Of a DNA stretch of 64,000 bases, positions 14,579-59,955 are shown in pieces (the stretch's first letter is position 1; every line of letters starts with the position of its first letter). Both the position numbers and the translations under genes were made by a program. The stretch spans positions 1,674,001 through 1,738,000 of the forward strand of contig NZ_CP151792.1 of assembly GCF_038446525.1 (NCBI RefSeq), in the 5' to 3' direction. The notes under the pieces were generated by a model, which was not told the origin of the DNA, did not search any database, and saw only the letters and a program-made list of their open reading frames with translations. Source of the DNA: Methanolobus sp. ZRKC5 (GTDB lineage Archaea; Halobacteriota; Methanosarcinia; Methanosarcinales; Methanosarcinaceae).

Positions 14579-14980
14579 TCATTTTGTAGAAGAATTTTCT
14601 ACTTGATATTTATAAAGTGCTATTTCGATTGCAGTTCGCAGGTCGTCTTCTTCAAAAGGCTTTAGTATGTATCCATAAGGCTCTGTCTGTTTAGCTCTTT
14701 TAAGTGTCTCATCATCTGAGTGGGCCGTGAGATATATCACTGGTATATTAAACTTCTCCTTGATTATTTGTGCCGCCTGGATTCCATCCATATCTCCTTT
14801 TAGTCTGATATCCATGATCACAAGATTTGGAAGGAAACCTTCAACTTTATTAATGGCTTCTTTTCCGGATGATGCAACGCTAGATACCTGATAACCAAGC
14901 TTTTTGAGTCTTTTCTTCAGCTCCAAAGCAACGACATTTTCATCTTCAACAACTAGTATCTTTGGATTATCCATTTTCAC
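14579..14980 (-). CDS. Receiver-only response regulator
   Basis: A 133-residue single receiver domain. The acidic pocket is VVEDENVV, the phospho-acceptor aspartate is in NLVIMDIRLKGDMDG (near residue 55), the switch threonine in PVIYLTAHSD and the conserved lysine in GYILKPFEEDD. There is no output domain, so it must act on a partner. It follows the kinase gene by four bases and is nearly the same as the receiver at 31297-31713. The FilR1-type regulators upstream are candidate partners. Confidence 0.93.
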   Translation of the reverse strand: MKMDNPKILVVEDENVVALELKKRLKKLGYQVSSVASSGKEAINKVEGFLPNLVIMDIRLKGDMDGIQAAQIIKEKFNIPVIYLTAHSDDETLKRAKQTEPYGYILKPFEEDDLRTAIEIALYKYQVENSSTK

Positions 14981-14984
14981 ACCT

Positions 14985-17843
14985 TCATTTTCTCTCTTTA
15001 AAATTTATGGAAAATTCGGTTCCATCAATTGTATTTAGTTCAATAGTACCATCAATCTGGTCAACGAGTGTGACCACAAGCTGCAAACCTAAAGATTCAG
15101 TATTTCTGTAATCTATCTCAGAAGAAAGTCCGATTCCATTGTCTTTTATTTTTATCAGGAAGTTCCCTCTCAGGACACTGAGTTCCACATTTATCTCCCC
15201 TTCTTTTCTTTCAGGGAAAGCGTGTTTTAGTGAGTTTGAAACAAGTTCATTGATTATCATACCCAGTGGAACAGCTGTATCAACATTCAGATAAACATTC
15301 TCAATATTCGAACTCAGTTTAATGTTTTTGTTTCCAGTCCCGTAAGATTTGGATAAATAATCCATCAATTTTTCCGTGTAATCAGAAAAATCAATACTTG
15401 TTATATCCTTGGATTGGTACAACTCTTCATGTATCAGAGCCATTGAACGCACACGATTACGACTGTCCATGAATGCCTCTATTACATCCGGATCCTCGAA
15501 ATTGTCAGATGCAAGATAGAGAAGACTTGAGATCACCTGCAAATTGTTTTTAACACGGTGGTGTATTTCTTTTTTACGTATGTTCTCTCCCTGTAAAAGT
15601 GCCTCTTCCACTTTTTTACGTTCAGTTATATCAAGAATGATACCCTGTAGTGTGATTCTGCCGGAATGATCACGCCTTGAGAAAGTCCTTTCATCTACCC
15701 ATCTTATGTCGCCTGATTTTGTGATTATTCTATACTCATAGTTCAGTTCTGCATCCTTTTTCATATAATAATTGGAAATATGCAAATGCGTTCTTTCACT
15801 GTCATCCGGGTGTATGATATCGGCATATTTGATACGGTTTGATGTAAAATCTTCTACAGTATAACCAAGTTTTGCGATGTTCTCAGAAACGAATTCTACT
15901 GGCCAGTCAGGTTCTGTTTTCCATTTGAAGACCATAACAGGACTGGTATTGATTATGTGCTCCATTTCTTCTTTAAGCTCATTAGAATGTTTTAGCTTTT
16001 TAGCGTAGTTCTTGAGTTCTCTTTCCGTCTGTTTTCTTTTGCTGATATCTCTTGCAATGGTAATGACTGCTGTATCCCCGTCAAACATGATTATTCGGCT
16101 GCTTAATTCTACTGGAAAAACAGTACCATCTTTTCTCATGTGGATTGTTTCTAATAGGTTGCTTTTGATCTTACATAACTCTTTGATAAGTCTAAGGAAA
16201 TCCATTCCACGGTTGGAAGCATCAATATCCATGTGCTTCAGGGAAAGGAATTCATCGCGGGTATATCCCATTCTTGAACATGCGATCTCATTTACTTCCA
16301 GGATATTTCCTTGCATATCAGTAAGATATATTGCATCATTTTGACTTTCAAACAAAGTCCTGAACTTCCTTTCAGAATCCCTGAGAGCCTTTTCCGCTCT
16401 TCTTTGCTCGTGAATAGCCAGATTTAACGAGTTTCTTGTCTTTTCTATTCCACCCGTTAAAACCTTGAAATCATTTTCACCATTGACCTTGACACTGCGG
16501 GAGAAATCATTGTTCTGTATAGCAGTAAGTACATTGCTGGAATCTGCAATAATATTGTTCAGGGAACCTGCAAAATTATCCAATGTATCTCCAAGGTGCT
16601 TGAATTCCCCTTTAAGTTCCAGCTCGGTACGTGTTCCCAGCTCTCCGTTTGCAAGAGCATTTGTAACTCTGATAGATTCACGGATTGGTGCTATTACAGC
16701 ATTCAATATCATATTGAGTCCGATTGGAATTTCCTTGAAGTCTCTCTCTACATTGGTTTGTGCTTTTGTATCCAGGTTTCCGTCAACTACATCCTGAGCG
16801 ATGGTCCTGAAGTTATTGACTATTTCATTTATAGGTGAAGTTATTGATGTTGCTATCAGATAAGCGACTAAACCCATAAAACAGATCGATATCACAGATA
16901 TGATGATAAGTGTGTTCCTGAGCTTAGTGACCCCGGCAAACATTTCTTCCTTTGGGACTACAAGCACAAAAGAGTAGTTACCTGTTTTTACAGGTTCGTA
17001 GAACATTATGACTTCTTTGCCTGTGGCAGGATCGATGGTTTCAACACTTCCACCCTTTCCAATTTTGATATCATCTGCTGCCATTGATATTTCAGGTATG
17101 CCAAAATCGTAAAGAGTTCGTGTTCCCATTCTCTCTTTGTATTCAGGATGGGATACAAGGATACCGGTATTTCCTGTCACGAATGCATATCCGGTGTCAA
17201 AAGCTTTTATACCACTTACCACGTCATCGATGTAACTAAGGGATACATCAACACCGGCAATGCCTATGAATTCATTATCTTTAAAGATAGGTGCATCAAA
17301 GCTTACCATGAAAATACCCTGATAAAAATAAGGTTCAGTAACAACATCGTCATGTGTTGTTTTTGGAATTTGATAGTAATCCTGTGTATCATAATTTACC
17401 AGGGGTTCCACTCCTATTTGCCCCTGAATAGTGTTCCAGTAAGGTACGAATCTCCCGGTGGAATCGTGAAATGGAGCATTCACATATTCATTGTCCTTTC
17501 CATCAAAAGCATTAGGTTCGTATCCGACATAAACTCCCGTAAGAGAAGGGTATGCTTCAAGAACATTTTTTAGAATATTGTTCACTTCTTGCCTATTGGC
17601 AGTTGTGTACATTTCCATTGATCTGGCAAGGGTTTCCGCAATAGCCATATTCGCCTTCATGTCCCCGTCGAACTGGTTGGCATAATCCCTTGCCATTTCT
17701 ACGGATTGAAGATATGCAAGTTCTCTTTGTTGTATGGTCACGTTTGTAATACTGACGGCAGTTGAAACAACAAGTACCAAAAAAACACTAATCACTATGT
17801 AAATAATCAACTTGGTTTTTATTGACATCTCATTATTTTTCAT
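14985..17843 (-). CDS. Sensor histidine kinase, dCache-HAMP-PAS-PAS-HisKA_2
   Basis: A 952-residue membrane kinase. A first membrane helix (residues ~10-32) and a second (~308-330, LIIISVISICFMGLVAYLIA) bracket an extracytoplasmic dCache domain with VSFDAPIFKDNEFIGIAGVD and DTGYAFVTGNTGILVSHPE. HAMP-like linkers follow, then two PAS domains (~490-610 and ~625-745), a HisKA_2 phosphoacceptor (KKEIHHRVKNNLQVISSLL) and an ATPase domain with GMIINELVSNSLKHAF and IKDNGIGLSS. dCache domains usually bind small amines, amino acids or acids outside the cell, so sensing of methylamines is a reasonable inference. The receiver gene follows at once; the module is divergent from mtmC1. Confidence 0.93.
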   Translation of the reverse strand: MKNNEMSIKTKLIIYIVISVFLVLVVSTAVSITNVTIQQRELAYLQSVEMARDYANQFDGDMKANMAIAETLARSMEMYTTANRQEVNNILKNVLEAYPSLTGVYVGYEPNAFDGKDNEYVNAPFHDSTGRFVPYWNTIQGQIGVEPLVNYDTQDYYQIPKTTHDDVVTEPYFYQGIFMVSFDAPIFKDNEFIGIAGVDVSLSYIDDVVSGIKAFDTGYAFVTGNTGILVSHPEYKERMGTRTLYDFGIPEISMAADDIKIGKGGSVETIDPATGKEVIMFYEPVKTGNYSFVLVVPKEEMFAGVTKLRNTLIIISVISICFMGLVAYLIATSITSPINEIVNNFRTIAQDVVDGNLDTKAQTNVERDFKEIPIGLNMILNAVIAPIRESIRVTNALANGELGTRTELELKGEFKHLGDTLDNFAGSLNNIIADSSNVLTAIQNNDFSRSVKVNGENDFKVLTGGIEKTRNSLNLAIHEQRRAEKALRDSERKFRTLFESQNDAIYLTDMQGNILEVNEIACSRMGYTRDEFLSLKHMDIDASNRGMDFLRLIKELCKIKSNLLETIHMRKDGTVFPVELSSRIIMFDGDTAVITIARDISKRKQTERELKNYAKKLKHSNELKEEMEHIINTSPVMVFKWKTEPDWPVEFVSENIAKLGYTVEDFTSNRIKYADIIHPDDSERTHLHISNYYMKKDAELNYEYRIITKSGDIRWVDERTFSRRDHSGRITLQGIILDITERKKVEEALLQGENIRKKEIHHRVKNNLQVISSLLYLASDNFEDPDVIEAFMDSRNRVRSMALIHEELYQSKDITSIDFSDYTEKLMDYLSKSYGTGNKNIKLSSNIENVYLNVDTAVPLGMIINELVSNSLKHAFPERKEGEINVELSVLRGNFLIKIKDNGIGLSSEIDYRNTESLGLQLVVTLVDQIDGTIELNTIDGTEFSINFKERK

Positions 17844-17897: not shown

Positions 17898-18683
17898 TCA
17901 TACTTTGTGAATCTCATTTGCCATTTTTTGGTAATATCCGAACAGTTCCTCTCCCCATTTTCGAGATTTTTGGGAAAAACTCATGATATCTCTATGGTCA
18001 TACATTCCTTTGTCATTGAAAAAACTGGCAGAAAATAAATTATCCGTAACTACAATTGGTGGAGGACACACTTCTTTTTCGTATAAGAACAAGTTTATAT
18101 TTTCGAGATGTTGCATTTTTTTCAGTTCTTCCTGGCTGTCTTCGCGCAATCTTTCAAGTACAGCCTCAGTTAGAATGATTGATATTTCAGTTCCCTTTTC
18201 TGCAAGTTTATTGTAAAGTGACGGATACAATGGATGATATATTGAAAAAATAAAATGTACATGTTTTGAATTCATAAGATGTTCAGTAAATTCCCTTGTA
18301 GGTTCAAACATATCGTTCAATTCTGGCTCGGCTATTATAGAATCCTCTATTTCTCCGATACTTTCCAGCAGATGTCCCGGGATGGCATTCATGTCTCTTT
18401 TAACCCAGTAATCTGTATCTTTCCCAAAGAGATTCAAAATACCTTCTATTGGTTTTATGTTTTCTACGATAAGTTTCCCAATGTTTGATAGTTCATAAAA
18501 TCCTTCAGGGTTACGGACCAGTCCTTCTTCTTTTAACTCCTTTAGTGGAAGTATTAAAGAACGCCAATCCACGTTAAACTCCTTCTTCATTTCATCGGGA
18601 CTCTTTGGTCCGCTTAGTAATAATAATAATACTTTTCTTCTTTTTTCAGAAAACCAAACGATTTCAGTTAGTGATGATTCCAT
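17898..18683 (-). CDS. FilR1-domain (DUF1724) winged-helix transcription regulator, Msr-like
   Basis: A 261-residue regulator. The N-terminal ~75 residues form a winged helix (WFSEKRRKVLLLLLSGPKS, then LILPLKELKEEGLVRNPEGF). The C-terminal FilR1 (DUF1724) ligand domain ends with MYDHRDIMSFSQKSRKWGEE, a signature shared by all three such proteins in this window. In Methanosarcina, related Msr proteins activate methyltransferase operons, so control of nearby methylamine genes is likely but not shown. It lies 54 bases upstream of the kinase gene on the same strand and 33 bases downstream of a paralogue. Confidence 0.88.
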   Translation of the reverse strand: MESSLTEIVWFSEKRRKVLLLLLSGPKSPDEMKKEFNVDWRSLILPLKELKEEGLVRNPEGFYELSNIGKLIVENIKPIEGILNLFGKDTDYWVKRDMNAIPGHLLESIGEIEDSIIAEPELNDMFEPTREFTEHLMNSKHVHFIFSIYHPLYPSLYNKLAEKGTEISIILTEAVLERLREDSQEELKKMQHLENINLFLYEKEVCPPPIVVTDNLFSASFFNDKGMYDHRDIMSFSQKSRKWGEELFGYYQKMANEIHKV

Positions 18684-18716: not shown

Positions 18717-19514
18717 TTATTCAACCTCTGTTATTTGACAGAGCTTTTGTGAATTTATCCTGTAATAGTCGAACAGTTCATTACACCACTTTAAGGAACT
18801 CTCGTCAAAACTGATTATATCCCTGTGGTCATATCTCTCCTCCTCATTGAAAAGGCAAATATAACAAAACCAATCAGTCACTGTTACCATTGGTATTTTC
18901 GGGTTCTCTTTGCAAAGGAAAACAGTTATATTTGTTATTTTCATCAATTCATTGAATTGTTCAAAGTACTCTTTTTTTATTTTTTCCAAAGCTTTCTCTG
19001 AAACAAAAAGTGATATATTTGCTCCTGATCGGGCTGCTTCCAAATAAAGAGAAAGGAATGTTGGATGAAGATATGAAACAAAAGTCACAATAGATTTTGA
19101 TTTAGGAATGTTATCAACAAATTCCCTGGGGAGCTCAAACATGTGGTTGATATCGGGTTCTATGAGGAAATAATGCCCAAGGTCATTTATTTTACTGAAA
19201 AGATGTGGAGGTATTGCATCAAAATTCCTGCTAGCCCAGAAATCTTTATTCTCTTCAACAATCCTTGATGTACAAAGAAATGGCAGCATACTCTTCACAA
19301 TTGTTTTTCCTATAGTGGTCAAACTGAATTGGTCTTGTTCCTGCTTTATAAGGTTGTTATTCTTCAGTGTTTTCATTTGGGGCATTATGGATCTGGTTGT
19401 TATATTAAGTGATTTTTTTATTTGTTCGATGTCCCTTTCCCCTTCATATAATAGTAGCAATACATTCTTTCTTTTTTCAGAAAACCAAACAGTATTTATC
19501 AGTGACGTTTTCAT
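18717..19514 (-). CDS. FilR1-domain (DUF1724) winged-helix transcription regulator, Msr-like
   Basis: A 265-residue paralogue of the neighbouring regulator, with the same winged helix (WFSEKRKNVLLLLYEGERD) and C-terminal RYDHRDIISFDESSLKWCNE. I chose the ATG at 19514 because MKTSLINTVW aligns with the first residues of both paralogues; in-frame ATGs at 19523 and 19520 are alternatives. It is the first gene of the regulator-regulator-kinase-receiver block and faces mtmC1 across 489 bases, so it may control both that operon and itself. Confidence 0.87.
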   Translation of the reverse strand: MKTSLINTVWFSEKRKNVLLLLYEGERDIEQIKKSLNITTRSIMPQMKTLKNNNLIKQEQDQFSLTTIGKTIVKSMLPFLCTSRIVEENKDFWASRNFDAIPPHLFSKINDLGHYFLIEPDINHMFELPREFVDNIPKSKSIVTFVSYLHPTFLSLYLEAARSGANISLFVSEKALEKIKKEYFEQFNELMKITNITVFLCKENPKIPMVTVTDWFCYICLFNEEERYDHRDIISFDESSLKWCNELFDYYRINSQKLCQITEVE

Positions 19515-19682
19515 ACCCATCATCTTCCCCGTTTCTGCTGCAATAGTCCTATTTTCAGGGACTTTTGATTGTGAGTTTCCTTAAATCCATTGGTCAAAAT
19601 CCTTGTTTAGTATGACAAATACATTTTTGCGTTCCCCTAATCACGTTTTAATCTAACCTTATATTAATTTAATTTATAGGTA

Positions 19683-19730
19683 AATTCACATTGATGTTTA
19701 CAATTCACAAGATATGTGACAATTCACAAG
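19683..19730 (+). promoter_or_regulatory. Three AATTCACA repeats at 19-base spacing upstream of mtmC1
   Basis: AATTCACA occurs at 19683-19690, 19702-19709 and 19721-19728; the last two copies extend to ACAATTCACAAG. The spacing of 19 bases places them on similar faces of the helix. A TATA-like AGCTATATAC follows at 19811-19820. The site lies between a FilR1 regulator and mtmC1 and is a candidate binding site for that regulator. Confidence 0.5.
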
Positions 19731-25938: not shown

Positions 25939-26040
25939 GATTACAACGCCGTTGTAATACTATCAAAGCAATAGATTATTTTCGTGAGGGTAGTGAATTC
26001 AAACACAGTAAGCACATTTGATTGAGTTTATGATATATAC
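25939..26040 (+). promoter_or_regulatory. Operator palindrome and TATA box upstream of mtbC1
   Basis: TTACAACG (25941-25948), one base, then CGTTGTAA (25950-25957) is a perfect 17-base palindrome. The TATA region TTTATGATATATAC lies at 26027-26040. The region upstream of mtmC2 has related half-sites and an almost identical GAGTTTATGAT-TATAT promoter, so both operons may answer to one regulator. Confidence 0.55.
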
Positions 26041-26129
26041 ATTTTCTTCTTATGCTTTACTATAACTGATTGCTCTTCAAGTTTCATGTTCTATACCAAC
26101 TGAAGGCAAAAAGTGATGGAGGTATTATT

Positions 26130-26774
26130 ATTAGTAAAGAAGAAATGTTCAAAGAATTATCAGATGCAGTTATCACATGCAAGAATGATGTTGTAACAGC
26201 AGCTGTAGAGAAAGCAAGAAATGAAGGTATTTCAGCTCCTGAAATTATCGAAAAAGGTCTTGCAGCAGGAATGAATGAAGTTGGTATCCGTTTTGAGAGA
26301 GGTAAGATGTTCCTTCCTCACGTAATGATGGCTGCAGGCGCAATGGAAGCAGGTGTCGCTCTCCTTGAAGCAGATATGCCAGCAGATGCTGCAAGCAAGA
26401 AGCTCGGTGTTATAGTAAACGGTACTGTCGAAGGCGACGTCCATGACATTGGCAAGTCCATTGTCTCAACCATGCTTCAATCAGCAGGTTTTGAAGTCCA
26501 CGATATCGGCAGAGATGTTCCTCTTCAGAATTTCATTGACAAGATCAAAGAAACCAACGCAAACATGGTAGGAATGTCTGCGCTTATGACAACCACTCTC
26601 GGTGCCCAGAAAGAAGTCATTGAGATGCTCAAGGAGAATGGTCTTAGAGATGGTATCAAGGTAATGGTCGGCGGTGCTCCAGCAACAGAAGCATGGGCTG
26701 AAAAGATCGGTGCAGACTGCTATGCAGAGAATGCCAGTGAAGCTGTTATAAAAGCTAAGGAACTCCTGCTTTAA
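26130..26774 (+). CDS. mtbC1: Dimethylamine corrinoid protein MtbC (copy 1), ATT at expected start
   Basis: A 214-residue corrinoid protein for dimethylamine, almost identical to mtbC2. The B12 motif is [15 protein letters not shown], followed by [11 protein letters not shown] and [10 protein letters not shown]. The codon aligned with the ATG of mtbC2 is ATT here (26130-26132), six bases after GGAGGT, so translation may start at ATT. The first in-frame ATG, at 26145, would remove five residues and sits too far from the ribosome site; an extension to TTG at 26070 has no homology. mtbB1 follows after 14 bases. Confidence 0.88.
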
Positions 26775-26788
26775 ATGAGGTGATTTTT

Positions 26789-28192
26789 ATGGCAACAGAA
26801 TATAAACTTAGAATGGGAGACGGAAAGCGTATTTTCATGACAAAGGAGCAGATCATTGCTGACCTTAAAGCAGGTATGGCAGATGCTGCAGACCTTGGTG
26901 AGATCCCTAACCTTAGTGAAGATGAGATCGACAAGCTCGTAGATATCATCACAATGCCTTCCAGAATGGTTGGTGTCGAACAAGGTATGGAAGTCCCAGT
27001 GACCCACGATATCGGAACCATCAGAATTGACGGTGACCAGGGTAACAGTGGTGTAGGTATTCCATCCAGCAGACTCGTTGGTGCAATGATGCACGAGAGA
27101 GCATTCGGTGCTGACACAATGGAATTAGGTCACATCGACTACAGTTACAAACCTGTAAAACCTGTAATCTCACAGGAAATGCAGACAATGGAAGTTTGCC
27201 AGCAGAACATGGTAGTTCCTTTGCTTTACGGTGCAATGCCAAATCTTGGTCTTTACTACACACCTGACGGTCCTTTCGAGAACCCAGGCGACCTTATGAA
27301 GGCTTTCAAGATCAAGGAAGCACAGGGATCCATGGAACATGCTGCTGAGCATGGTACAAGGGACATGATCTGGATCATGCAGAAACTCATGGCATCCGGT
27401 GCAGATGGTGTTAACTTCGATACTATCGGTGCTGCAGGAGATGGTGACATGTTCGCATCCCTCAACGCTATTGAGGCATTGAGAAAACAGTATCCTGACA
27501 TCTATATTGAAGCAGGTATGGCAGGAGAGCTTTTGCTCGGTCTTCACGGTGAACTGGAATATGACGGTACTGTACTCGCAGGTCTGTGGCCACACCAGCA
27601 GGCACCACTTGCAGCAAAGGCTGGTGCAAATGTCTTTGGTCCTGTATGTAACACAAATACCAGCAAATCATCTGCATGGAACCTTGGAAGAGCTGTTAAC
27701 TTCATGAAGGCAGCTGTTAAAGCTTCCCCTATCCCTTGCCATGTGAACATGGGAATGGGTGTAGGCAGTATTCCAATGTTCGAGACTCCAACAATTGATG
27801 CAGTTTCAAGAGCAAGCAAGGCGATGGTCGAAGTCGCCGGCGTGGATGGAATATAGATAGGGGTCGGCGACCCGATGGGTATGCCGATCTCCCACATAAT
27901 GACTTCCGGAATGAGCGGAATCAGAGCTGCTGGTGACCTTGTTGCAAGGATGCAGCTTTCAAAGAGCATGAGAATTGGAGAAGCAAAGGACTTCGTTGCC
28001 AAGAAGCTGGACGTTACTACAGATGATCTCAGTGACGAATATGTAATGAGAGAACTGAGAGAAGAACTTGGTATTGGTGTAATCACTTCAGTTGCAGGTG
28101 CTCCAAAAGGAATCGCAGCAAAGATGAACATCGAGAAACTTCTTGGAATTGACATCAACTGCTGTGACAAATTCAGAGGACAGTTGAAGTAA
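26789..28192 (+). CDS. mtbB1: Dimethylamine methyltransferase MtbB with pyrrolysine (copy 1)
   Basis: A 467-residue protein if the TAG at 27854-27856 is read as pyrrolysine (residue 356, as in M. barkeri MtbB). The flanking VEVAGVDGI and [15 protein letters not shown] are the MtbB active-site surroundings, and the frame stays open to TAA at 28192. It moves a methyl group from dimethylamine to MtbC, releasing monomethylamine. The ATG at 26789 follows GAGGTGA. The middle part (about residues 150-335) differs from mtbB2 more than the rest; for example [10 protein letters not shown] here is [10 protein letters not shown] in mtbB2 and in M. barkeri. Confidence 0.96.
27854..27873 (+). promoter_or_regulatory. 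Amber codon and adjacent hairpin in mtbB1
   Basis: TAG (27854-27856) is followed after four bases by GGGTC-GGC-GACCC (27861-27873), a short strong hairpin. Its position resembles the PYLIS element of mtmB but the sequence is unrelated. The stem also encodes GVGDP, so it may be incidental. Confidence 0.5.
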
Positions 28193-28312: not shown

Positions 28313-29797
28313 ATGGAGAAAAAAGAAGGAATAGACTGGCATCATGCAGAGCAGTGTTCTAAAGTGGTCTGTGACACCGGGGACGACAGTGGGCTTGAGA
28401 GGTCTATCGATTGGAAACAGGGTCTTGCAATTGCTGTAGGTGTACCTCTGTTGATCTTGCCATCAATTGGATACTTTGCTGGTTATCTGTGGTCAGCTGC
28501 TATTATTGTCTGGGGTCTTTCCGTATTCCAGGGATTCATGCAGAATCTGGCTTATGGTGAACTTGCAACAACTTTCCCGAAGGCATCTGGTCTTCCTGGA
28601 TTTGCACAGAATGTTTTCAAAACACCTAATTTCAAAGGAAAATATGACAAAAGCAAGCTTGTAGGTGGATTCAGTGCATGGAGTTACTGGTTTGCCTGGA
28701 ATCCCGTACTTGCTATCTTTGCTATCCTTGTAGGTTTTTACTTGCACAGCCTTTTCCCTGTACTTGCCAGCACTTTCAGTGAATATCAGCTTTCATTAGT
28801 TGCAGGTATTATTATATTCGGAGGTCTTATACTTATTAATTATCGTGGTGTTTCAAGTGGTGCAGTGGTAGGTTATATTCTCGCAGCACTTGCATTTATT
28901 CCACTGATTATAATTGCAGTGGTACCTTATATTACAGGTGATTTTGTAATGGCAAATATCACAAGCACCTGGTTGCCAACTGACTGGGTATGGGACCTTC
29001 ATCATATTCTTATCTTGCTAGGTATTTTTGCAATGGCACAGTGGAGTGCATGTGCATGGGAAACAGCAGCTATCTATGGTCCTGAATACAAAAACCCAGG
29101 TAAAGATGTACCAAAAGCACTTTTCACCTGTGGTGCAATCTGTCTTCTGGCATTTGTAATCGTACAGATGACAGTTACCGGTGTACTCGGTATCGATGGT
29201 ATTGCCAATGCACCAATCGATCCTATGCTTCCTGTTGCACAGGCAGCTCTCGGTGACATGGGTTCAACGGTTGCTATTGTAATGCTTATTGCAGCAATGG
29301 TCCTTATCATCCAGACCGCTTACCTTGGTTCTGCAAGAGCAATGCACTCAATGGCAGTTGAAGGAAATCTTCCAAGAGTATTCGGTAAAGTGAATGCCCA
29401 TGGTACTCCTATACTGGCAATGGTCGTTATCGGTGTCTTTAACCTGGGACTTATTTCAATGGGTACTCCAACAGCTATCCTTGCAGCATCCGCTATAGGA
29501 TATGTTTGTGCAAACGGTATCAGTCTCTTTGCATATGTAAAGGCAAAATCAGACCCGCATCTTGCAGGTCTTGACAGGCCTTTCAAGGCACCAGGTGGCT
29601 GGAAGAATGTTTCACTAATGTTTGGTCTATTCAACCTTCCTCTCTGTCTGATCGGTATCATTTATCTTAACAGTGTCGAAGGAAGCTGGTTCTCTACTGG
29701 TGTTGGAATTCTTGTACTGGCTTTGTATGTACCTATGTGGTATTATTCACAACATGAAAATCATGTTGCGAAGCAGGTGGAACCGCAGAGTGTATAA
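28313..29797 (+). CDS. APC-family permease, probable dimethylamine transporter
   Basis: A 494-residue membrane protein with about twelve hydrophobic helices. The first-helix substrate region reads AIAVGVPLLILPSIGYFAG, and SAWSYWFAWNPVLAIFAILV and WSACAWETAAIYGPEYKNPG are further APC-like features. It starts at ATG 28313 after AAAGGGGTGA. It follows mtbC1-mtbB1, so dimethylamine uptake (MtbP-like) is the best inference. It is not closely similar to the permease at 22261-23652 and has no tiny partner genes. Confidence 0.82.
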   Translation: MEKKEGIDWHHAEQCSKVVCDTGDDSGLERSIDWKQGLAIAVGVPLLILPSIGYFAGYLWSAAIIVWGLSVFQGFMQNLAYGELATTFPKASGLPGFAQNVFKTPNFKGKYDKSKLVGGFSAWSYWFAWNPVLAIFAILVGFYLHSLFPVLASTFSEYQLSLVAGIIIFGGLILINYRGVSSGAVVGYILAALAFIPLIIIAVVPYITGDFVMANITSTWLPTDWVWDLHHILILLGIFAMAQWSACAWETAAIYGPEYKNPGKDVPKALFTCGAICLLAFVIVQMTVTGVLGIDGIANAPIDPMLPVAQAALGDMGSTVAIVMLIAAMVLIIQTAYLGSARAMHSMAVEGNLPRVFGKVNAHGTPILAMVVIGVFNLGLISMGTPTAILAASAIGYVCANGISLFAYVKAKSDPHLAGLDRPFKAPGGWKNVSLMFGLFNLPLCLIGIIYLNSVEGSWFSTGVGILVLALYVPMWYYSQHENHVAKQVEPQSV

Positions 29798-29922: not shown

Positions 29923-30254
29923 CTTTTTAGTTATTATGGAACTCATTTTAAAACTTAAAATACTATTTCTTAAATGATTGTGCTAAGGGTTTGCCTGGAG
30001 TTCAGATAACTCTCTGATGAACAATGGAAATATATTATACGTTTTTTGCCACCATAACCAATAACTGGAAGAAAGAGAACTGATGGCCGTAAGTTAATCA
30101 CTGGTTTCCTCTTTGTTCTGATAACTGGCTGTAGATAAAGCCATGCCGGATCATTATGCTTCAAACTTAGCGTATGAGATGATTAAAGAGGCGGTATAAG
30201 GAAGGTATTTAGAATCCGATCATAGAATAGTGTGATTCCACGATATCAAAAAGG

Positions 30255-30380
30255 CGAAATTTTAATGGACACTGTGCATGTTGATATCAGTTCCATCGAA
30301 ACTAAAAAGAGGAGAGGACACGGCTTATAGCGGCCACAAGAAATGAAAAGGAATAAAGATCCATGCGTGTGAAATCCATG
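30255..30380 (+). pseudogene. Decayed DDE transposase fragment
   Basis: The frame containing GACACGGCTTATAGC reads DTAYSGHKK, stop, KGIKIHACE, which resembles the conserved GYSGHKKxKGxKIHAC stretch of IS5/IS1182-like DDE transposases. A second frame just upstream gives MDTVHVDISSIETKKRR, which matches the preceding DST-like part. Frameshifts and stops show that it is dead. The rest of the 650-base spacer (29798-30449) shows no intact gene. Confidence 0.5.
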
Positions 30381-30449
30381 AAGTTTTTCCTTTGAGGATT
30401 CAATAGCTTCTGGAAAAAGTACAATCCATTTTTTTAATTATATTCGTTT

Positions 30450-31229
30450 TTAAGAGATATTTTCCGCTTTATCTTTGAAATAAGAGAATAGTTCCTTGCT
30501 CCATTGCAGTGCATTGCTGTCAAAGCTCATCAGGATGGTATGATCATATTGTCCCTGTTTATTAAAGAAACAGAGAAACAGGAATCTATCAGTACTAACT
30601 AACGTTGCCAGACCAGTGTTCTCATTTGACACAAGCATCTCAGTATTTTCAAAGCTCATGAATTTCCTGACGTCTTCTGAATAATCTTTTTCCATTCTTT
30701 CATGGACAGAGTTTGTTGTTACCAGGGAAAAATCGATTCCCTTTTCAGCAAGACTTGAATAAAGGGCTGGGTACTCAGGATGGAAATAAGCGTTAAAAGC
30801 CATAACATAAGTAGATTTACTTATGTTTTCAGTAAATTCTTTAGGAAATTCAAAAAGGTAGTTAAGGTCAGGCTCAATGATAACACAGTTTCCAAGTTCA
30901 CCGAATCTCTTAAGCATAGATTCAGGAATGCCGTTGAGATCACGATTCAACCAATAGTTACTGTTCTCTTCAAAAACATCTACTGCACTTAAAAGAGGCA
31001 GCATGTTTGCTACCAGAACTTTCCCCATATTGGTTAAGATATAATAATCTACATTCTGAATGACAAGACCATGTTCCTTGAGTTTCTTGATCTGGGGAAT
31101 AAGGGCTGTGGAAGTAACGTTAAGACTTGTTTTTATCTCTTCGCGGCTTTTTTCTCCTTCCATCAAGAGAAGCAGAACATTTTTCCGTTTTTCCGAATTG
31201 AGGATTATGTCTATTAGTGAACCATTCAT
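30450..31229 (-). CDS. FilR1-domain (DUF1724) winged-helix transcription regulator, Msr-like
   Basis: A 259-residue regulator like those at 17898 and 18717: winged helix (LNSEKRKNVLLLLMEGEKS, LIPQIKKLKEHGLVIQNVDY) and C-terminal FilR1 domain ending QYDHTILMSFDSNALQWSKE. The signature HRDI is HTIL here. It is the last gene of a kinase-receiver-regulator block whose kinase faces mtmC2, and lies 67 bases after the receiver gene. Confidence 0.88.
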   Translation of the reverse strand: MNGSLIDIILNSEKRKNVLLLLMEGEKSREEIKTSLNVTSTALIPQIKKLKEHGLVIQNVDYYILTNMGKVLVANMLPLLSAVDVFEENSNYWLNRDLNGIPESMLKRFGELGNCVIIEPDLNYLFEFPKEFTENISKSTYVMAFNAYFHPEYPALYSSLAEKGIDFSLVTTNSVHERMEKDYSEDVRKFMSFENTEMLVSNENTGLATLVSTDRFLFLCFFNKQGQYDHTILMSFDSNALQWSKELFSYFKDKAENIS

Positions 31230-31296
31230 TCATACCAACTGTTCTGATTTTATTGCAATAGTGTCTGAATTTTATGAATATCGTTATTCAAAGATT

Positions 31297-31713
31297 TCAT
31301 ATGCTGTTACTACATACTTTTTCTTGCGCACTCTTTTCTGTTTTATGTCTGTAAAGTGCAATTTCGATGTTACTGCGTAAATCATCTGCTTTGAATGGTT
31401 TCACGATGTATCCGTAAGGCTCAGTTTTTTTTGCTTTTTCAAGAACTTCATCATCCGAATATGCAGTAAGATATATCACCGGAATATCGAAATTCTTACG
31501 GATCTTCTCAGCAGTTTCTACCCCATCCATGTCCCCCTTAAGTCTTACATCCATTAATATGAGGTCAGGAAATGTTATCTCTGCCATCTTTATAGCTTCT
31601 TCCCCTGTTGCAACTATAGCCGGTACAGTATATCCAAAACTTTTCAGCTTCTTTTTTATATTAAGACCAATGATTCCTTCGTCTTCTACCACAAGAATTT
31701 TCACATCTTCCAT
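31297..31713 (-). CDS. Receiver-only response regulator
   Basis: A 138-residue single receiver domain: VVEDEGII acidic pocket, phospho-acceptor aspartate in DLILMDVRLKGDMDG, PVIYLTAYSD and GYIVKPFKADD. Very similar to the receiver at 14579-14980. It follows its kinase by 19 bases. With no output domain, its target is probably a protein such as the FilR1 regulator encoded next to it. Confidence 0.93.
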   Translation of the reverse strand: MEDVKILVVEDEGIIGLNIKKKLKSFGYTVPAIVATGEEAIKMAEITFPDLILMDVRLKGDMDGVETAEKIRKNFDIPVIYLTAYSDDEVLEKAKKTEPYGYIVKPFKADDLRSNIEIALYRHKTEKSAQEKVCSNSI

Positions 31714-31732
31714 GATTTCACCTGAATTTTTA

Positions 31733-33817
31733 TCATTTTAAAATTATCCTGAATTCCGTGCCTTTGCTTCGATCAAGTTCAATTATGCCATCTATCTGGG
31801 ATGTCAGGGTGGTGACCAGTTGCAATCCCAGAGAATCTGTCTCTTTGAAATTGATGTTTTCCGGGAAGCCGGTTCCATTGTCCCCTACGATCAAGGTCAA
31901 CTTTCTGTCTTCAAGGCTCAGATTAACATATATTTCCCTTTCTTTTTCCTGCTTGAAAGCATGCTTGAATGAATTCGAAACAAGTTCATTTACTATCATA
32001 CCAAGGGGAATGGCAGTATCCATATCAAGGAAAGTGGGGTCAACATTCATTTTAATTTTAATGTATTCTTTATTGACCGCGTATGAATATGACAGCTCAT
32101 TAACAAGTTTCATAAGATAATCGGAAAAGTCTATGCTTTCCATGTCCTGCGATCTGTAAAGTTCCTCATGCACCAAAGCCATTGATACCACACGGTTCTG
32201 GCTTTCCTTGAAAGCCTCGATAACCTCTTCATCTTTGAATTTATCGGATTCAAGGTCAAGCAAACTTGAAATGACCTGAAGGTTATTCTTTATACGATGA
32301 TGGATCTCTTTTTTCCTTATTTCCTCTATCTTTCCGCGTTCATCTATCATCTCTGATAGAGTTGCCCTTGTTTTTTCGATTCCCTCTGTCAGGATAAGGA
32401 AATCACCTTCTCCATATACCCTTACAGTTCTCGAAAAATCATTTTGTTGTATTTTAGTAAGCACCTGGTTGGAGTCTTTTATTATTGTTTCAAGTAATAA
32501 GGCAAAGTTATCCAGTGTATTTGCAAGTTGCCTGAATTCCCCATGGACATTTAAGTGAGATCTTTCACCAAGTTCCCCCTTAGCAAGTGCATTTGTAAGT
32601 CTTACAGTATCACGAATAGGTGTTATTACTGCATCCAGGATTTCATTGAGGCCTATAGGAATCTCTTTGAAATCACTTTCAACATCTGTTTCAGCCCTTG
32701 AGTCGAGATTTCCCCTGACTGCATCTTTTGATATATTCTTAAAATCATTAACTATGTTTTTTATGGGTCTTGTAAAGGACAATGCTATCAAATAAGAGAT
32801 AGCGGCCATGAAAATTACGGCTGCAAAGGATATTTGTAAAAGCTTGTTACTAAGGGTGTTCACACCTGCAAACATCTCATCCTTTGGAATAACCAGAACA
32901 AATGAAAAATTGCCTGTTCTTATTGGCTCGTAAAACATTACTACATTTTTCCCGGTAATGGGGTCAACAGTTTCAACGTGGCCGTTCATCCCCTTTCCGA
33001 TGTCATATCCAATTTTTGAAAAGTCCTCATTTCCAAAATCATAAAGCGTTTTTTTCCCAATCCACTCTTTATTCGTAGGGTGTGAGACCAGGATACCAGT
33101 ATTACCTGTCATGAAAGCATATCCTGTATCAAATGCTTTTACTTCGCTGATTGCTTCATCCAGATAATTCAGGGAAACATCCACCCCCCCTATCCCAATG
33201 AATTCATTATCTTTCATTATCGGCGAAACATAACTCACAATGAAGACACCTTCGTAATAATAGGGTTCTGTTAATATTTCTGTCTCTGTCTTTTTTGGCA
33301 GTTGATAGTAATCCAGTGTTTCATAATTCAGAAGGGGATCAAGTGTTATAGGTCCGTTTATTTTGTTCCAGTAAGGAATGAACCTTCCAGTGGAATCATG
33401 TCCCTGGGAATTCATATATAATATATCATTACCATCAAAGGCATCTGGTTCATAAGCAACATATGTACCAAGTAATTGAGGATGTTCTACCAGAAGATTG
33501 TAAAGCATATTATTTGCTTCTTCCCTGTTCATGGAATCATAGCTACTCATGCTCACAGCTATGGTTTCCGCAATGGCACGGTTAGTTTCCATATCACCAT
33601 TGAAGTCATTAGCGTAGTTCCTGGCCATCTCGATAGATTGCTTGTAGGCAAGTTCTTCTTCCTGATCAGTTACAGTAGAAATGGTCATTGCAGTACTTGC
33701 TGCAAGTACAAGCAAGGTACCTGTGACTATATACAGAATAAGTTTGAATTTCAGTGACATATTTTTCAATTTGTTTTGTAAAATCTGTAATTTATTTGGC
33801 ATTGCATTTATCCGCAA
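31733..33817 (-). CDS. Sensor histidine kinase, dCache-HAMP-HisKA_2
   Basis: A 694-residue paralogue of the kinase at 14985-17843. The membrane helices, dCache domain (VSYVSPIMKDNEFIGIGGVD, DTGYAFMTGNTGILVSHPT), HAMP-like linkers, phosphoacceptor (KKEIHHRIKNNLQVISSLL) and ATPase (GMIVNELVSNSFKHAF, VGDNGTGFP) all match. The two PAS domains of the longer kinase are absent; the linker passes straight to HisKA_2. In-frame ATGs at residues 6 and 20 are alternative starts, the last agreeing best with the paralogue. It faces mtmC2 across 262 bases. Confidence 0.92.
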   Translation of the reverse strand: MRINAMPNKLQILQNKLKNMSLKFKLILYIVTGTLLVLAASTAMTISTVTDQEEELAYKQSIEMARNYANDFNGDMETNRAIAETIAVSMSSYDSMNREEANNMLYNLLVEHPQLLGTYVAYEPDAFDGNDILYMNSQGHDSTGRFIPYWNKINGPITLDPLLNYETLDYYQLPKKTETEILTEPYYYEGVFIVSYVSPIMKDNEFIGIGGVDVSLNYLDEAISEVKAFDTGYAFMTGNTGILVSHPTNKEWIGKKTLYDFGNEDFSKIGYDIGKGMNGHVETVDPITGKNVVMFYEPIRTGNFSFVLVIPKDEMFAGVNTLSNKLLQISFAAVIFMAAISYLIALSFTRPIKNIVNDFKNISKDAVRGNLDSRAETDVESDFKEIPIGLNEILDAVITPIRDTVRLTNALAKGELGERSHLNVHGEFRQLANTLDNFALLLETIIKDSNQVLTKIQQNDFSRTVRVYGEGDFLILTEGIEKTRATLSEMIDERGKIEEIRKKEIHHRIKNNLQVISSLLDLESDKFKDEEVIEAFKESQNRVVSMALVHEELYRSQDMESIDFSDYLMKLVNELSYSYAVNKEYIKIKMNVDPTFLDMDTAIPLGMIVNELVSNSFKHAFKQEKEREIYVNLSLEDRKLTLIVGDNGTGFPENINFKETDSLGLQLVTTLTSQIDGIIELDRSKGTEFRIILK

Positions 33818-33876
33818 TGTTTTATTGTGTTAACAATAGGTTAGACGCATTATACTTTAAAATATGCGCTTGTTAA

Positions 33877-33998
33877 GATTACAATAGCTTTGAAGTAATA
33901 CAATAACGTTGTAATCGTTTTCATTGAAGCTAATGTTTTTTCTGTTTAACAAGTTCAGAATCAATAGCAGTATTTTGCTGAGTTTATGATTTATATCG
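33877..33998 (+). promoter_or_regulatory. Operator half-sites and promoter upstream of mtmC2
   Basis: GATTACAA (33877-33884) and TTGTAATC (33909-33916) form an inverted pair related to the palindrome before mtbC1. The TATA region GAGTTTATGATTTATATCG follows at 33980-33998 and is nearly the same as at mtbC1. Confidence 0.5.
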
Positions 33999-34079: not shown

Positions 34080-34736
34080 ATGTCAAACCAGGAAATGTTA
34101 GACAAACTCAGAGATATAATCGTTACCCAGAACATCAGCGGCTGTGCAGCAGCTACCCAGGAAGCTCTCGACGGCGGACTCACTGCAGTTGAGATCATCA
34201 ATGGCGGTCTTTCAGTAGGTATGAAGATCATAGGAGATAAATTTGAAGCAGCAGAAGTATACCTTCCACAGATCATGATGTCTGCAAAGGCAATGAATGC
34301 TGCAATGGAAATTTTAGTTCCTATACTTGCAGAAGAAAAGGGAGCAGATGATGAAGGTGTAGGTCTTGCTATCACTTACGTACAGGAAGGCGACATTCAT
34401 GATATCGGTCACCGCCTTGTAACAACAATGCTTGGTGCAAACGGCTTTAGGATCCTTGATATGGGAGTAGATGTTCCAAATGACAAGATTGTCGAAGAAG
34501 TTGCAAAGAACAAGGGCAAGAAGGTCATCCTCGTAGGCTCAGCACTTATGACAACATCCATGCTTGGTCAGAAGGACACAGTAGAGATGCTCACTGAAGA
34601 AGGCCTCAGAGACTCTGTAAAGATCATGTTCGGTGGTGCACCAGTTTCAGATGGCTGGATCGCAGAGATCGGAGCAGATGCAACAGCAGAAAATGCAGCA
34701 GATGCAGCTCGTGTAGCTCTTGACATAATGAAATAA
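34080..34736 (+). CDS. mtmC2: Monomethylamine corrinoid protein MtmC (copy 2)
   Basis: A 218-residue corrinoid protein with GDIHDIGHRLVTTML, VGSALMTTSML and FGGAPVSDGW. It starts at ATG 34080 after GGAGGAGGC. It is much closer to mtmC3 than to mtmC1. mtmB2 begins 13 bases downstream. Confidence 0.96.
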   Translation: MSNQEMLDKLRDIIVTQNISGCAAATQEALDGGLTAVEIINGGLSVGMKIIGDKFEAAEVYLPQIMMSAKAMNAAMEILVPILAEEKGADDEGVGLAITYVQEGDIHDIGHRLVTTMLGANGFRILDMGVDVPNDKIVEEVAKNKGKKVILVGSALMTTSMLGQKDTVEMLTEEGLRDSVKIMFGGAPVSDGWIAEIGADATAENAADAARVALDIMK

Positions 34737-34749
34737 GGAGGCATATATT

Positions 34750-36126
34750 ATGACATTTTCAAGATCAATGGATTGTTTTGAATTCTACGAGCGTGCAAAG
34801 AAAGGTACCAAGATGTCCCAAGACGACTGGGACCTTATGACCATTCCTATGAAGTCAATGGAGCTCAAGCAAAAATATAACCTTGACTTCAAGAACGAAT
34901 TCGTCCCAACCGACAAGGACATGATGGAAAACCTGTTCAAAGCAGGTTTTGAAATGCTTCTTGACTGTGGTATATTCTGTACCGACACAAGTCGTGTAGT
35001 AAAATATACTGAGGATGAGATCTGGGACGCTATCAACAATGTCCAGAAGGAATTCACACTCGGAACCGGCAGAGACGCAGTAAACGTCAGAAAAAGAAGT
35101 GTTGGTGACAAGAGAAAGCCAATAATACAGGGTGGTCCAACTGGTTCCCCTATTTCTGAAGACGTTTTCATGCCTGTTCACATGAGTTACGCTCTTGAGA
35201 AAGAAGTCGACACTATTGTTGATGGTGTCATTATGTCTGTTCGTGGAAGGCCAACAATTCCAAAGAGTCCTTATGAGATCCTGGCTGCCAAGACCGAGAC
35301 AAGGCTTATCAAGGCTGCAGCTGCAATGGCCGGAAGGCCAGGCATGGGCATATAGGGACCAGAGACTTCCCTGTCCGCTCAGGGAAATATCGCTTCAGAC
35401 TGTGCCGGTGGCCAGGTCTGCAGTGACAGTCACGAAGTATCACAGCTCAATGAGCTTAAGATCGACCTTGACGCTATCAGTGTGATGGCACACTATCAGG
35501 GTAACAGTGACATTATCATGGATGAACAGATGCCTATCTTTGGTGGATATGCCGGTGGCATAGAAGAAACCACAATTGTCGACATCGCAACCCACATCAA
35601 TGCATTTGTAATGAGCAATGCAAGCTGGCATCTTGACGGTCCGGTCCACATCCGCTGGGGATCCACAAACACTCGTGAGACCCTCCAGATCGCAGGATGG
35701 GCATGTGCAACGATCTCAGAATTCACTGACATGCTCTCCGGTAACCAGTACTATCCATGTGCAGGTCCATGTACCGAGATGTGTCTGCTTGAAGCATCCG
35801 CACAGTCTATGACCGACACAGCATCTGGCCGTGAGATCCTCTCCGGTGTTGCATCTGCAAAGGGTGTTGTCCAGGACAAGACCACGGGTATGGAAGCAAG
35901 GATGATGGGAGAAGTCGCAAGAGCAACTTCAGGCATGGATATTGGAGAGGTCAACAAGATTCTCGACAATCTTGTAAAACTCTACGAGAACGACTATGCA
36001 ACTGCACCAGGTGGCAAGACATTCCAGGAATGTTACGATGTTGCAACCGTAACACCAACCGATGAGTATGTCAAAGTCTACGACGGCGCACGTAAAAAGC
36101 TCGAAGAGCTTGGACTTGTATTCTAA
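34750..36126 (+). CDS. mtmB2: Monomethylamine methyltransferase MtmB with pyrrolysine (copy 2)
   Basis: A 458-residue protein with pyrrolysine encoded by TAG at 35353-35355 (residue 202). The context AGRPGMGI-O-GPETSLSAQGN is the same as in the other two copies. The frame continues to TAA at 36126. A long part of the 3' half (about 35519-35885) is the same as in mtmB1 at DNA level, including silent positions, which points to gene conversion. It forms an operon with mtmC2; mtbA2 follows after two terminator-like hairpins. Confidence 0.96.
35353..35386 (+). promoter_or_regulatory. Amber codon and PYLIS-type hairpin in mtmB2
   Basis: TAG at 35353-35355, then TTCCCTG (35367-35373) pairing with CAGGGAA (35380-35386), the same bases as in mtmB1 and mtmB3. 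Confidence 0.7.
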
Positions 36127-48462: not shown

Positions 48463-48925
48463 TTTTTGTAAACTCCTTTTTTATTGTATTATTTGTTTGT
48501 TGAATTGTTGCAAAAACAAGCTACATATATTTATTGGTTGATTTTTAACACTGTGAACTCAAAAAACACCATCAATCGATGGCATACATAATTTAATGTA
48601 TATGTGTTCATAATACAAATTAACAGGATTTATGTACGATTATTAAATTTTATTTCCTAAAGTTGTCATCAAAAACCCTAATTCTTGTATATGTTGTTTA
48701 TTTGTATGCTAATCACAATTTTATAGGAATCATTATATTATATTGTTCTCAACTAACTACTCGTAAAATTTATATACTACAGGACGGTCATTGGGGGTGT
48801 ACTTAGTAATATTTTTTAAATACAATTTAGCAAAAACGATTTCAATCTCGTTTTAATGTTTATTTTATCCTTGTGTGGGGTGGGATATCTTTATATCTTA
48901 TGGCTGATTTGCAGCAAATGCCAAA

Positions 48926-58581: not shown

Positions 58582-59955
58582 TCAAACTGGCTCCCCGGGG
58601 AAGTCTCCCAATATATCGTAAGATATCTTCCTGTAAAGTGCCAGATACTCCTCGGTAGGTTCCATATCGTATTCAGAACGGATGTTGTAACATTTCTCGA
58701 AGGGTTTCCCTTGTGGTGGGGATTTGAGGCGATCAGCATATTTTGCATATATCTTTGCCACGAGCTTATTAGCTTCAGAGAGGGTCAGGTGGGTTGCCAT
58801 TTGGGCCATCTCACCCATGAATCGAGATTCGAGGCCGGATGAGTGGTCAGGGACGCTTCCAAGTCTGCCAGTGGGTCCAAGCAGTATGTTCCTGCCACAT
58901 ACAGTGTCGCCAATAGTCTGTGCAGCAGTCTCATAGAACATCATGTCCGTACAGATACCAGCAGCGTTCCAGTAGTATCTTGCAGTATAATAGTTCATAT
59001 TTCTGGAAATTGCAAGGGATGACATATTTGATGCCCACAGTATCTCCTTGGCAGATGATGAGCCGGTTTCAGCATGTACTGCACCGGATGCGTGTATGCT
59101 GGAGTGAGCCAGAACTTTTGATTGTAGAGTTTCAGCCACATCTATGATGGCAAGTCCCTCAGGGGAACCAATGCATGGTCCTCCGAAAACAGGTACCTGG
59201 CCTGATATATAGTGATTACCATGTTCCTGATGATAAATGCATTTTGACAGGGTCTCATAGTCCACTTTCAGATCATCCATGTAAACTTCCTGGGGGTCAG
59301 CACTTGAATAAAGCTCATCTGATGATACAAGCAAAGATGATGTTGTAAGTGTTGAGGTGCTCGGACCCATAAGTGCAAGCCCTTCTCTCCCGGCTATTTT
59401 GGAAGCCAGTCTCTCATTTCTGGATGCCTTCAGAACTGCAAGCATCTCCAACGGGCTTTTTGGTTGTATATATTCTCCCCCAAATTGTTTCATGGCTCCG
59501 CTGTAGATTCCTTGCACAACGTTCTCCTGTGCAGAGCTTAAGTTAACGTAAAGGAAATTTTCCTCTGATATGCTTCCTCCCATCGGACCGCCTATGATCA
59601 CAGGTGGGAATGAAGCCATAGGGTAACGATTTGCTACTATTACTTTTTCTTTGAGTCTTCCAATCTCAAGAGGGTTTGTGGTATTCAAAGCCTTCAAAAT
59701 ATCTTCTTCGTCAATATTAATAACTCTCTGGGTGCTTCTACAGAATATCCCTACAGAATGGAGAAGTTCAATACCGGCTTCAAATACAGAATCTGCAGCT
59801 TCAAGATCATCAGGCACAAAAATTCTAGGATCATACTCTATCCCATATTTAAGAGCTAATTCTTCTGATTTTTTGAAAACTTTTATGTCATGCTCCCTTT
59901 CGGTTCTTTTTTCTCCTCCAATTGCATATTTGAGGTATTTGTAGATATTTTGCAT
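58582..59955 (-). CDS. MtmB-family methyltransferase homologue lacking pyrrolysine
   Basis: A 457-residue protein that aligns over its whole length with MtmB. Shared stretches include IIGGPMGGSISEENF (MtmB: VQGGPTGSPISEDVF), QPKSPLEMLAVLKASRNERL, QVPVFGGPCIGSPEG, AAQTIGDTVCGRNIL and GLESRFMGEMAQMA. At the pyrrolysine site MtmB has AGRPGMGI-O-GPETS; here it reads AGREGLALMGPSTS, with methionine in place of pyrrolysine and no amber codon. By analogy with non-pyrrolysine MttB homologues such as MtgB, it may demethylate another substrate, or have another role. No corrinoid protein gene adjoins it. It is transcribed away from mtbA3 from a 260-base leader region containing a MITE upstream. Confidence 0.88.
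   Translation of the reverse strand: MQNIYKYLKYAIGGEKRTEREHDIKVFKKSEELALKYGIEYDPRIFVPDDLEAADSVFEAGIELLHSVGIFCRSTQRVINIDEEDILKALNTTNPLEIGRLKEKVIVANRYPMASFPPVIIGGPMGGSISEENFLYVNLSSAQENVVQGIYSGAMKQFGGEYIQPKSPLEMLAVLKASRNERLASKIAGREGLALMGPSTSTLTTSSLLVSSDELYSSADPQEVYMDDLKVDYETLSKCIYHQEHGNHYISGQVPVFGGPCIGSPEGLAIIDVAETLQSKVLAHSSIHASGAVHAETGSSSAKEILWASNMSSLAISRNMNYYTARYYWNAAGICTDMMFYETAAQTIGDTVCGRNILLGPTGRLGSVPDHSSGLESRFMGEMAQMATHLTLSEANKLVAKIYAKYADRLKSPPQGKPFEKCYNIRSEYDMEPTEEYLALYRKISYDILGDFPGEPV

Follow-up and report, generated by a model that had tools for sequence, protein, structure and literature searches.

One of the closest known counterparts of the locus considered here is the FilI/FilR1/FilR2 system of Methanosaeta (Methanothrix) harundinacea, in which a kinase, a receiver-only protein and a winged helix-turn-helix (wHTH)-DUF1724 (FilR1_middle) regulator are encoded together and methanogenesis genes are controlled (PMC3991700, PMC5847659). 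A kinase, a receiver and a FilR1 regulator are likewise grouped as module 2 at 30450-33817 of a 64,000-nucleotide stretch of Methanolobus sp. ZRKC5 (NZ_CP151792.1, 1,674,001-1,738,000; whole genome 3.05 Mb), which is called the window and to which short coordinates refer. FilR1 of M. harundinacea has a receiver fused at its C-terminal end and is paired with a CHASE4 sensor, whereas the receiver of module 2 is separate and its sensor is dCache_1AM; module 2 thus works like FilI/FilR but, because its regulator P0001 lacks a receiver, is a split variant and not a member of that system.

The Msr regulators of Methanosarcina acetivorans (MsrA-E and others) likewise act on corrinoid methyltransferase operons, and a helix-turn-helix with DUF1724 is common to P0001, MsrC and MsrX (PMC11784639). 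So far as described, Msr regulators act on methanol and methylsulfide genes, in contrast with the methylamine genes around module 2. MsmS and RdmS, known kinases neighbouring Msr genes and named in PMC11619418, are redox sensors. On the sensor side, the Methanosarcina mazei kinase represented by structure 3LIB is a homologous dCache_1AM amine sensor whose ligands were measured (PMC10104139). Compared with it, the module 2 kinase has no PAS domain, possesses its own receiver and FilR1 in the order kinase-receiver-FilR1, lies between mtmCB2 and mtbCB, and has a ligand assigned by homology. Module 2 is interpreted here, with a probability of about 0.6, as a methylamine-sensing switch of the FilI/FilR kind that would govern itself, mtbCB, a permease gene and mtmCB2, responding to di- and monomethylamine rather than to monomethylamine only.

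Module 2 and its sensor

The components of module 2 and the genes on its two sides are listed below.

31733-33817, minus strand: sensor histidine kinase P0003, class B; Pfam dCache_1 (residues 53-307), HAMP, HisKA_2 (504-579) and HATPase_c, no PAS
31297-31713, minus strand: stand-alone receiver (REC) P0002; Pfam Response_reg only
30450-31229, minus strand: FilR1/Msr-family regulator P0001; Pfam FilR1_middle (E 3.9e-36) and N-terminal wHTH
34080-34736, plus strand: mtmC2, corrinoid protein, divergent from the module; candidate target
34750-36126, plus strand: mtmB2, monomethylamine methyltransferase, pyrrolysine-coding, with an in-frame TAG at residue 202
26070-26774, plus strand: mtbC of the dimethylamine operon; putative target
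26780-28192, plus strand: mtbB of the same operon, pyrrolysine-coding; putative target
28313-29797, plus strand: permease like those for trimethylamine N-oxide or amines, after mtbB; putative target

These assignments bear out much of the initial annotation, which had described a kinase, a receiver and a FilR1 at 30450-33817 (the coordinates are exact and the Pfam domains agree), a kinase free of PAS here and one with two PAS domains in a related module 1 (both confirmed by Pfam), and divergence from mtmCB2, whose mtmC2 and mtmB2 lie on the opposite strand with 262 bp between the kinase and mtmC2. It gave no weight to the other flank, where mtbC-mtbB-permease converge with the module. The stretch between permease and FilR1 (29980-30440) resembles, by eye, a decayed insertion-sequence remnant.

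P0003 is composed of a transmembrane segment, the extracellular dCache_1AM domain, a second transmembrane segment, HAMP, HisKA_2 and HATPase_c, the transmembrane segments being judged by eye. In P0002 the phospho-acceptor Asp55 and Asp11/Thr83/Lys105 belong to positions invariant in 13/13 aligned receivers. P0001 scores 124.3 bits against FilR1_middle (PF08350), for which the curated cut-off is 27, and shows no Pfam match to Response_reg; the genome holds 19 FilR1_middle matches. The predicted structure of P0001 (predicted local distance difference test score, pLDDT, 91) links the wHTH with a phospholipase-D-like domain. TrmB and TrmBL2 are built in the same way, a likeness of fold only: Z is 13.9 with a root-mean-square deviation of 2.5 over 127 aligned residues for TrmB (2f5t_X), and 15.0 with 21.7 over 208 for TrmBL2 (5box_A), while a PDB sequence search with FilR1 returned nothing significant and no TrmB sequence match.

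Modules of this kind were classified by the position and number of FilR1 genes, with one FilR1 before the kinase in class A1, two FilR1 in class A2 and the order kinase-receiver-FilR1 in class B. The 70 kinases considered, 10 of which belong to no class, mix 32 near-complete genomes (at most 10 contigs, at least 95% complete) with chosen drafts (L101-L115) and L014, and the class counts and trees omit ten named loci (L005-L013 and L015), seven of them duplicates and three (L010, L011 and L012) not.

Residues 47-328 of P0003 match the M. mazei sensor 3lib_A over its full domain length (E 3.3e-125); for the sensor of module 1 the matching structures are 3LI8 and 3LIB. 3LIB is receptor R1, the histidine kinase WP_011034866.1, with measured affinities of 0.53 uM for dimethylamine, 10 uM for trimethylamine and 35.1 uM for methylamine, so that dimethylamine is bound 66x tighter than monomethylamine (PMC10104139). 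The amine (AM) motif, defined in PctD as R103, D133, W155, F188, Y189, M215, S217 and D235 (PMC10104139) and placed here by residue-number spacing on the 3LIB sequence, not by PctD alignment, is kept at all positions in P0003 and in 18/18 class B kinases, as expected of dCache_1AM; it is complete in 21/21 class A2 and 10/21 class A1 kinases, and the corresponding residues of P0008 are R52, D82, W104, Y124, Y125, I147, S149 and D167. It is therefore well supported by homology that P0003 would sense small methylamines outside the cell.

The other 11 class A1 kinases (L029, L036, L037, L040, L043 and L044 among them) have Cys at the Trp155 position, which is Trp in 10/10 unclassed kinases. A rule of sensor specificity drawn from differences among A1, A2 and B was rejected, only column 143 (E/Q) separating the classes. 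The amine motif is also kept in a dCache_1AM chemoreceptor (L097, G000:C1:1058914-1059753, minus strand), whose sequence makes methylamine chemotaxis likely too.

Candidate operator and composite promoters

Alignment of upstream regions revealed, for class B kinases, a 19-bp palindrome (ATTACAA-N5-TTGTAAT) that immediately precedes the presumed TATA box. With at most two mismatches it is present in 18/18 class B modules, no more than about 110 bp ahead of the kinase, and at 0/42 of the A1 and A2 operon starts. The elements in the window are as follows.

33878-33915, no strand: two abutting 19-bp palindromes (2 and 1 mismatches), candidate operator common to the kinase operon and mtmC2
33855-33862, minus strand: TATA box presumed for the kinase operon, immediately past the palindromes, from alignment of 19 kinase upstream regions
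25940-25958, no strand: perfect ATTACAA-N5-TTGTAAT upstream of mtbC, the only perfect copy in the 3.05-Mb genome
33979-33995, plus strand: mtmC2 promoter element TGAGTTTATGATTTATA, 82 bp from the palindrome (start to start)
26023-26039, plus strand: mtbC promoter element TGAGTTTATGATATATA, 83 bp from the palindrome (start to start)

Four copies (25940, perfect; 33878; 33897; 48839) are present in the window against 0.53 expected. The last, a two-mismatch palindrome at 48839-48857, lies upstream of mttB and may mark the trimethylamine genes as weak targets or may be due to chance. Across 55 genomes, perfect palindromes occur in 17/27 of the Methanolobus group (g1) versus 3/28 others, and a reversed control pattern gave zero perfect copies. 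Of the 22 perfect g1 copies, 9 stand beside mtbC, 7 beside the kinase or mtmC, 4 beside permease/pylS, 1 beside a ramA-like pair and 1 beside a corrinoid gene, and the three outside g1 represent one common AT-rich sequence with no labelled gene adjoining. One-mismatch palindromes are unspecific, some being present in 31/32 near-complete genomes and 30 arising from repeated sequence in G017. Those elsewhere in the ZRKC5 genome, at 955624 (before an unlabelled open reading frame), 1351282 (before a corrinoid gene) and 1393085 (at the 5' end of an open reading frame), were taken as unproven.

The palindrome is coupled to a second element at both methyltransferase operons, and the TGAGTTTATGATATATA element, with at most one mismatch, was found nowhere in the genome besides mtbC and mtmC2. 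A degenerate search for the composite in 111 genomes yielded 18 sites in 17 genomes, all within the Methanolobus group (17/27; 0/84 others), with a length of 98 (16 sites) or 97 (2 sites). These sites precede mtbC in 12 cases, mtmC in five (one 555 bp away) and, in L175, a permease like that after mtbB of the window. The window spacers at mtbC and mtmC2 are 40% identical, compared with 31% after shuffling, and 4.9% of shuffles reach as high; on this comparison recent copying of the promoter is improbable, but the two may share descent. A methylamine-responsive FilR1 operator or regulon was not reported in the literature searched, which mostly excluded subscription papers.

Distribution and module classes

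The sensor was found in 89/111 Methanosarcinaceae genomes, and about 9 kb of sequence to either side of a locus was examined, the reach of the search for mtm and mtb genes. The 32 near-complete genomes, to which this census is confined, hold 90 sensor genes, 53 with HisKA_2 and 37 without. Mtm or mtb genes lie within 9 kb of 46/53 dCache_1AM-HisKA_2 kinases versus 0/37 dCache proteins lacking HisKA_2, four of which were examined and proved to be two chemoreceptors and two HisKA kinases; the exceptions among the 53 are in L037, L043, L046, L049, L052, L055 and L062, and the significance of the contrast is nominal because the genomes are related. The initial annotation had proposed such a synteny comparison, and the outcome that would have spoken against it, a module mostly away from methylamine genes, was absent. 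A receiver follows the kinase directly on its 3' side in 47/53 cases, and both receiver and FilR1 adjoin in 45/53, encoded together as in FilI/FilR, a pairing that is not due to chance. The 45 full triads are distributed as 23 at mtm, 18 at mtb only and 4 at neither.

Neighbourhoods differ among the classes. The 21 class A1 loci comprise 17 at mtb, 4 at neither and 0 at mtm; the 21 class A2 loci comprise 19 at mtm and 2 on cut contigs, none being mtb-only; and the 18 class B loci comprise 6 at mtb only, 6 at both, 5 at mtm only and 1 at neither. Class B is confined to g1 and g11 (one sister genus), class A1 occurs in g5, g7, g10 and g13, and none of the 32 near-complete genomes contains both. 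Each of A1, A2second and B occupies one side of a branch in the FilR1 tree. The kinase tree joins B to the A1 kinases of g7 and g10, with a support of 92 that is not starred. An approximately unbiased test rejected neither B with A2 (p 0.22) nor B with all A1 (p 0.30). PAS content does not track class, with one in an A2 kinase of g7, two in the window A2 kinase, one in the A1 examples and none in window B. The initial annotation took PAS to add an internal, perhaps redox, signal, which may be so; kinases with one, two or no PAS occur in modules of the same kind.

Module 1 of the window exemplifies class A2.

14579-14980, minus strand: receiver, class A2
14985-17843, minus strand: kinase with two PAS (Pfam), class A2
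17898-18683 and 18717-19523, minus strand: tandem FilR1 genes, class A2
19681-19728, plus strand: candidate operator of class A2, in which AATTCACA is directly repeated every 19 bp; a single copy in the genome

Module 2 had been regarded as the same three-part module repeated; a second kinase-receiver-FilR1 association does exist, but module 1 has two tandem FilR1 genes 5' of the kinase and its receiver last, and the two modules are 62% identical in dCache, 56% in the receiver and 39% in FilR1. A dedicated mtm switch fits module 1, because class A2 is never mtb-only in 21 loci, and module 1 fits an mtmCB1 switch with its own, different operator.

Elsewhere in the window, an MtmB-family protein (58582-59955, minus strand) has Met at the pyrrolysine position of MtmB, and MtmB matches without the in-frame stop are present in many of the 32 near-complete genomes. 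An IS66 family transposase is located at 62390-63706 (plus strand).

Proposed mechanism and competing explanations

Small methylamines outside the cell would bind the dCache_1AM domain of the kinase, for which homology is strong, and the HisKA_2 core would autophosphorylate and then phosphorylate the adjacent receiver, as the intact catalytic motifs and gene order suggest. The phosphorylated receiver would alter the wHTH/TrmB-like FilR1, which has no receiver of its own, by contact. FilR1 would bind the 19-bp palindromes and activate its own operon and the divergent mtmCB2, and also, at a distance, mtbCB and the permease; in the promoters concerned, the palindrome precedes the TGAGTTTATGATATATA element by 82-83 bp. 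The palindrome-promoter architecture can be read directly from the DNA, and its regulatory function is inferred. FilR1 of M. harundinacea, with the same domains and a fused receiver, accepts phosphate from its kinase and is an activator that binds both its own promoter and that of the kinase (PMC3991700); contact between receiver and FilR1 is favoured here because that protein consists of the same parts plus the fused receiver.

Several observations weigh against this interpretation. Neither class B nor the palindrome extends beyond the Methanolobus group and a single sister genus, which makes their co-occurrence a matter of one lineage rather than many tests, and the composite promoters among Methanolobus species share descent. 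Four loci of Methanolobus genomes (L019:10431, L020:10458, L103:10201 and L106:8347) carry another palindrome, ACGGTANNAGANTACCGTAT, just upstream of mtmC2 and have no composite promoter near that gene, which makes mtmCB2 a variable member of the regulon. The modelled TrmB-like effector fold suggests that FilR1 may itself sense an internal ligand, and preliminary data from M. acetivorans exclude the Msr (FilR1-family) regulators from the MA4377 phosphorelay (PMC11784639), so receiver-to-FilR1 signalling may not be general.

The last two points also favour the proposal that FilR1 is the real switch, sensing an internal ligand by itself in the one-component manner of TrmB with sugars, and with the kinase and receiver merely co-located and feeding a general receiver network; receiver-only proteins have been proposed as network hubs (PMC11784639), and Methanosarcina Msr proteins control mta operons (PMC11218639). 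The tight, class-specific linkage of kinase, receiver and FilR1 in 45/53 cases and the fusion of FilR1 to a receiver in M. harundinacea (PMC5847659) argue otherwise and render this proposal unlikely. It is also rather improbable that the palindrome belongs to another regulator and class B FilR1 acts elsewhere: the 19 FilR1_middle matches and other regulators in the genome offer candidates, and the pairing of palindrome with FilR1 is inferred, but the palindromes stand directly upstream of 18/18 class B operons and of none in A1 or A2, and autoregulation is a known FilR1 pattern (PMC3991700).

The dedicated monomethylamine switch of the initial annotation, by which module 2 would regulate only the divergent mtmCB2, draws on that direct divergence across 262 bp, on the 11/18 class B modules near mtm, and on L051, L064, L066 and L069, where the composite promoter lies at mtmC and the stretch read contains no mtb gene. 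It conflicts with the perfect palindrome, found only at mtbC in this genome and combined there with a composite promoter, with mtbC following 12/18 composite sites, with the g11 module L024, which is divergent from mtbC itself, with the 18/45 triads at mtb only, and with the preference of the homologous sensor 3LIB for dimethylamine; for module 2 it is accordingly held to be a poor candidate.

The methylamine switch of the FilI/FilR kind may be extended by a doubtful proposal, in which a free phospho-receiver switches FilR1, TrmB-like and lacking a receiver, through contact, and FilR1 protomers then line up along the DNA at 19-bp intervals, starting at the palindrome and proceeding towards the promoter element 83 bp away. 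It is suggested because ATT triplets are conserved near composite columns 0, 38, 57 and 75 and the class A2 operator has a 19-bp period, and such an activation mode is not described for the FilR1 family in the literature consulted.

It is an open question in the field how archaeal receivers that stand alone act on transcription (PMC11784639, PMC5847659), for which the compact module 2 would provide a clean test. The reading of its regulon predicts which methylamine operons respond together. In module 2 an amine sensor whose homologue has measured ligands is linked to a regulator, a candidate operator and a small predicted regulon, all in one methylotrophic methanogen, so that an archaeal two-component pathway would become testable over its full course from ligand to promoter.
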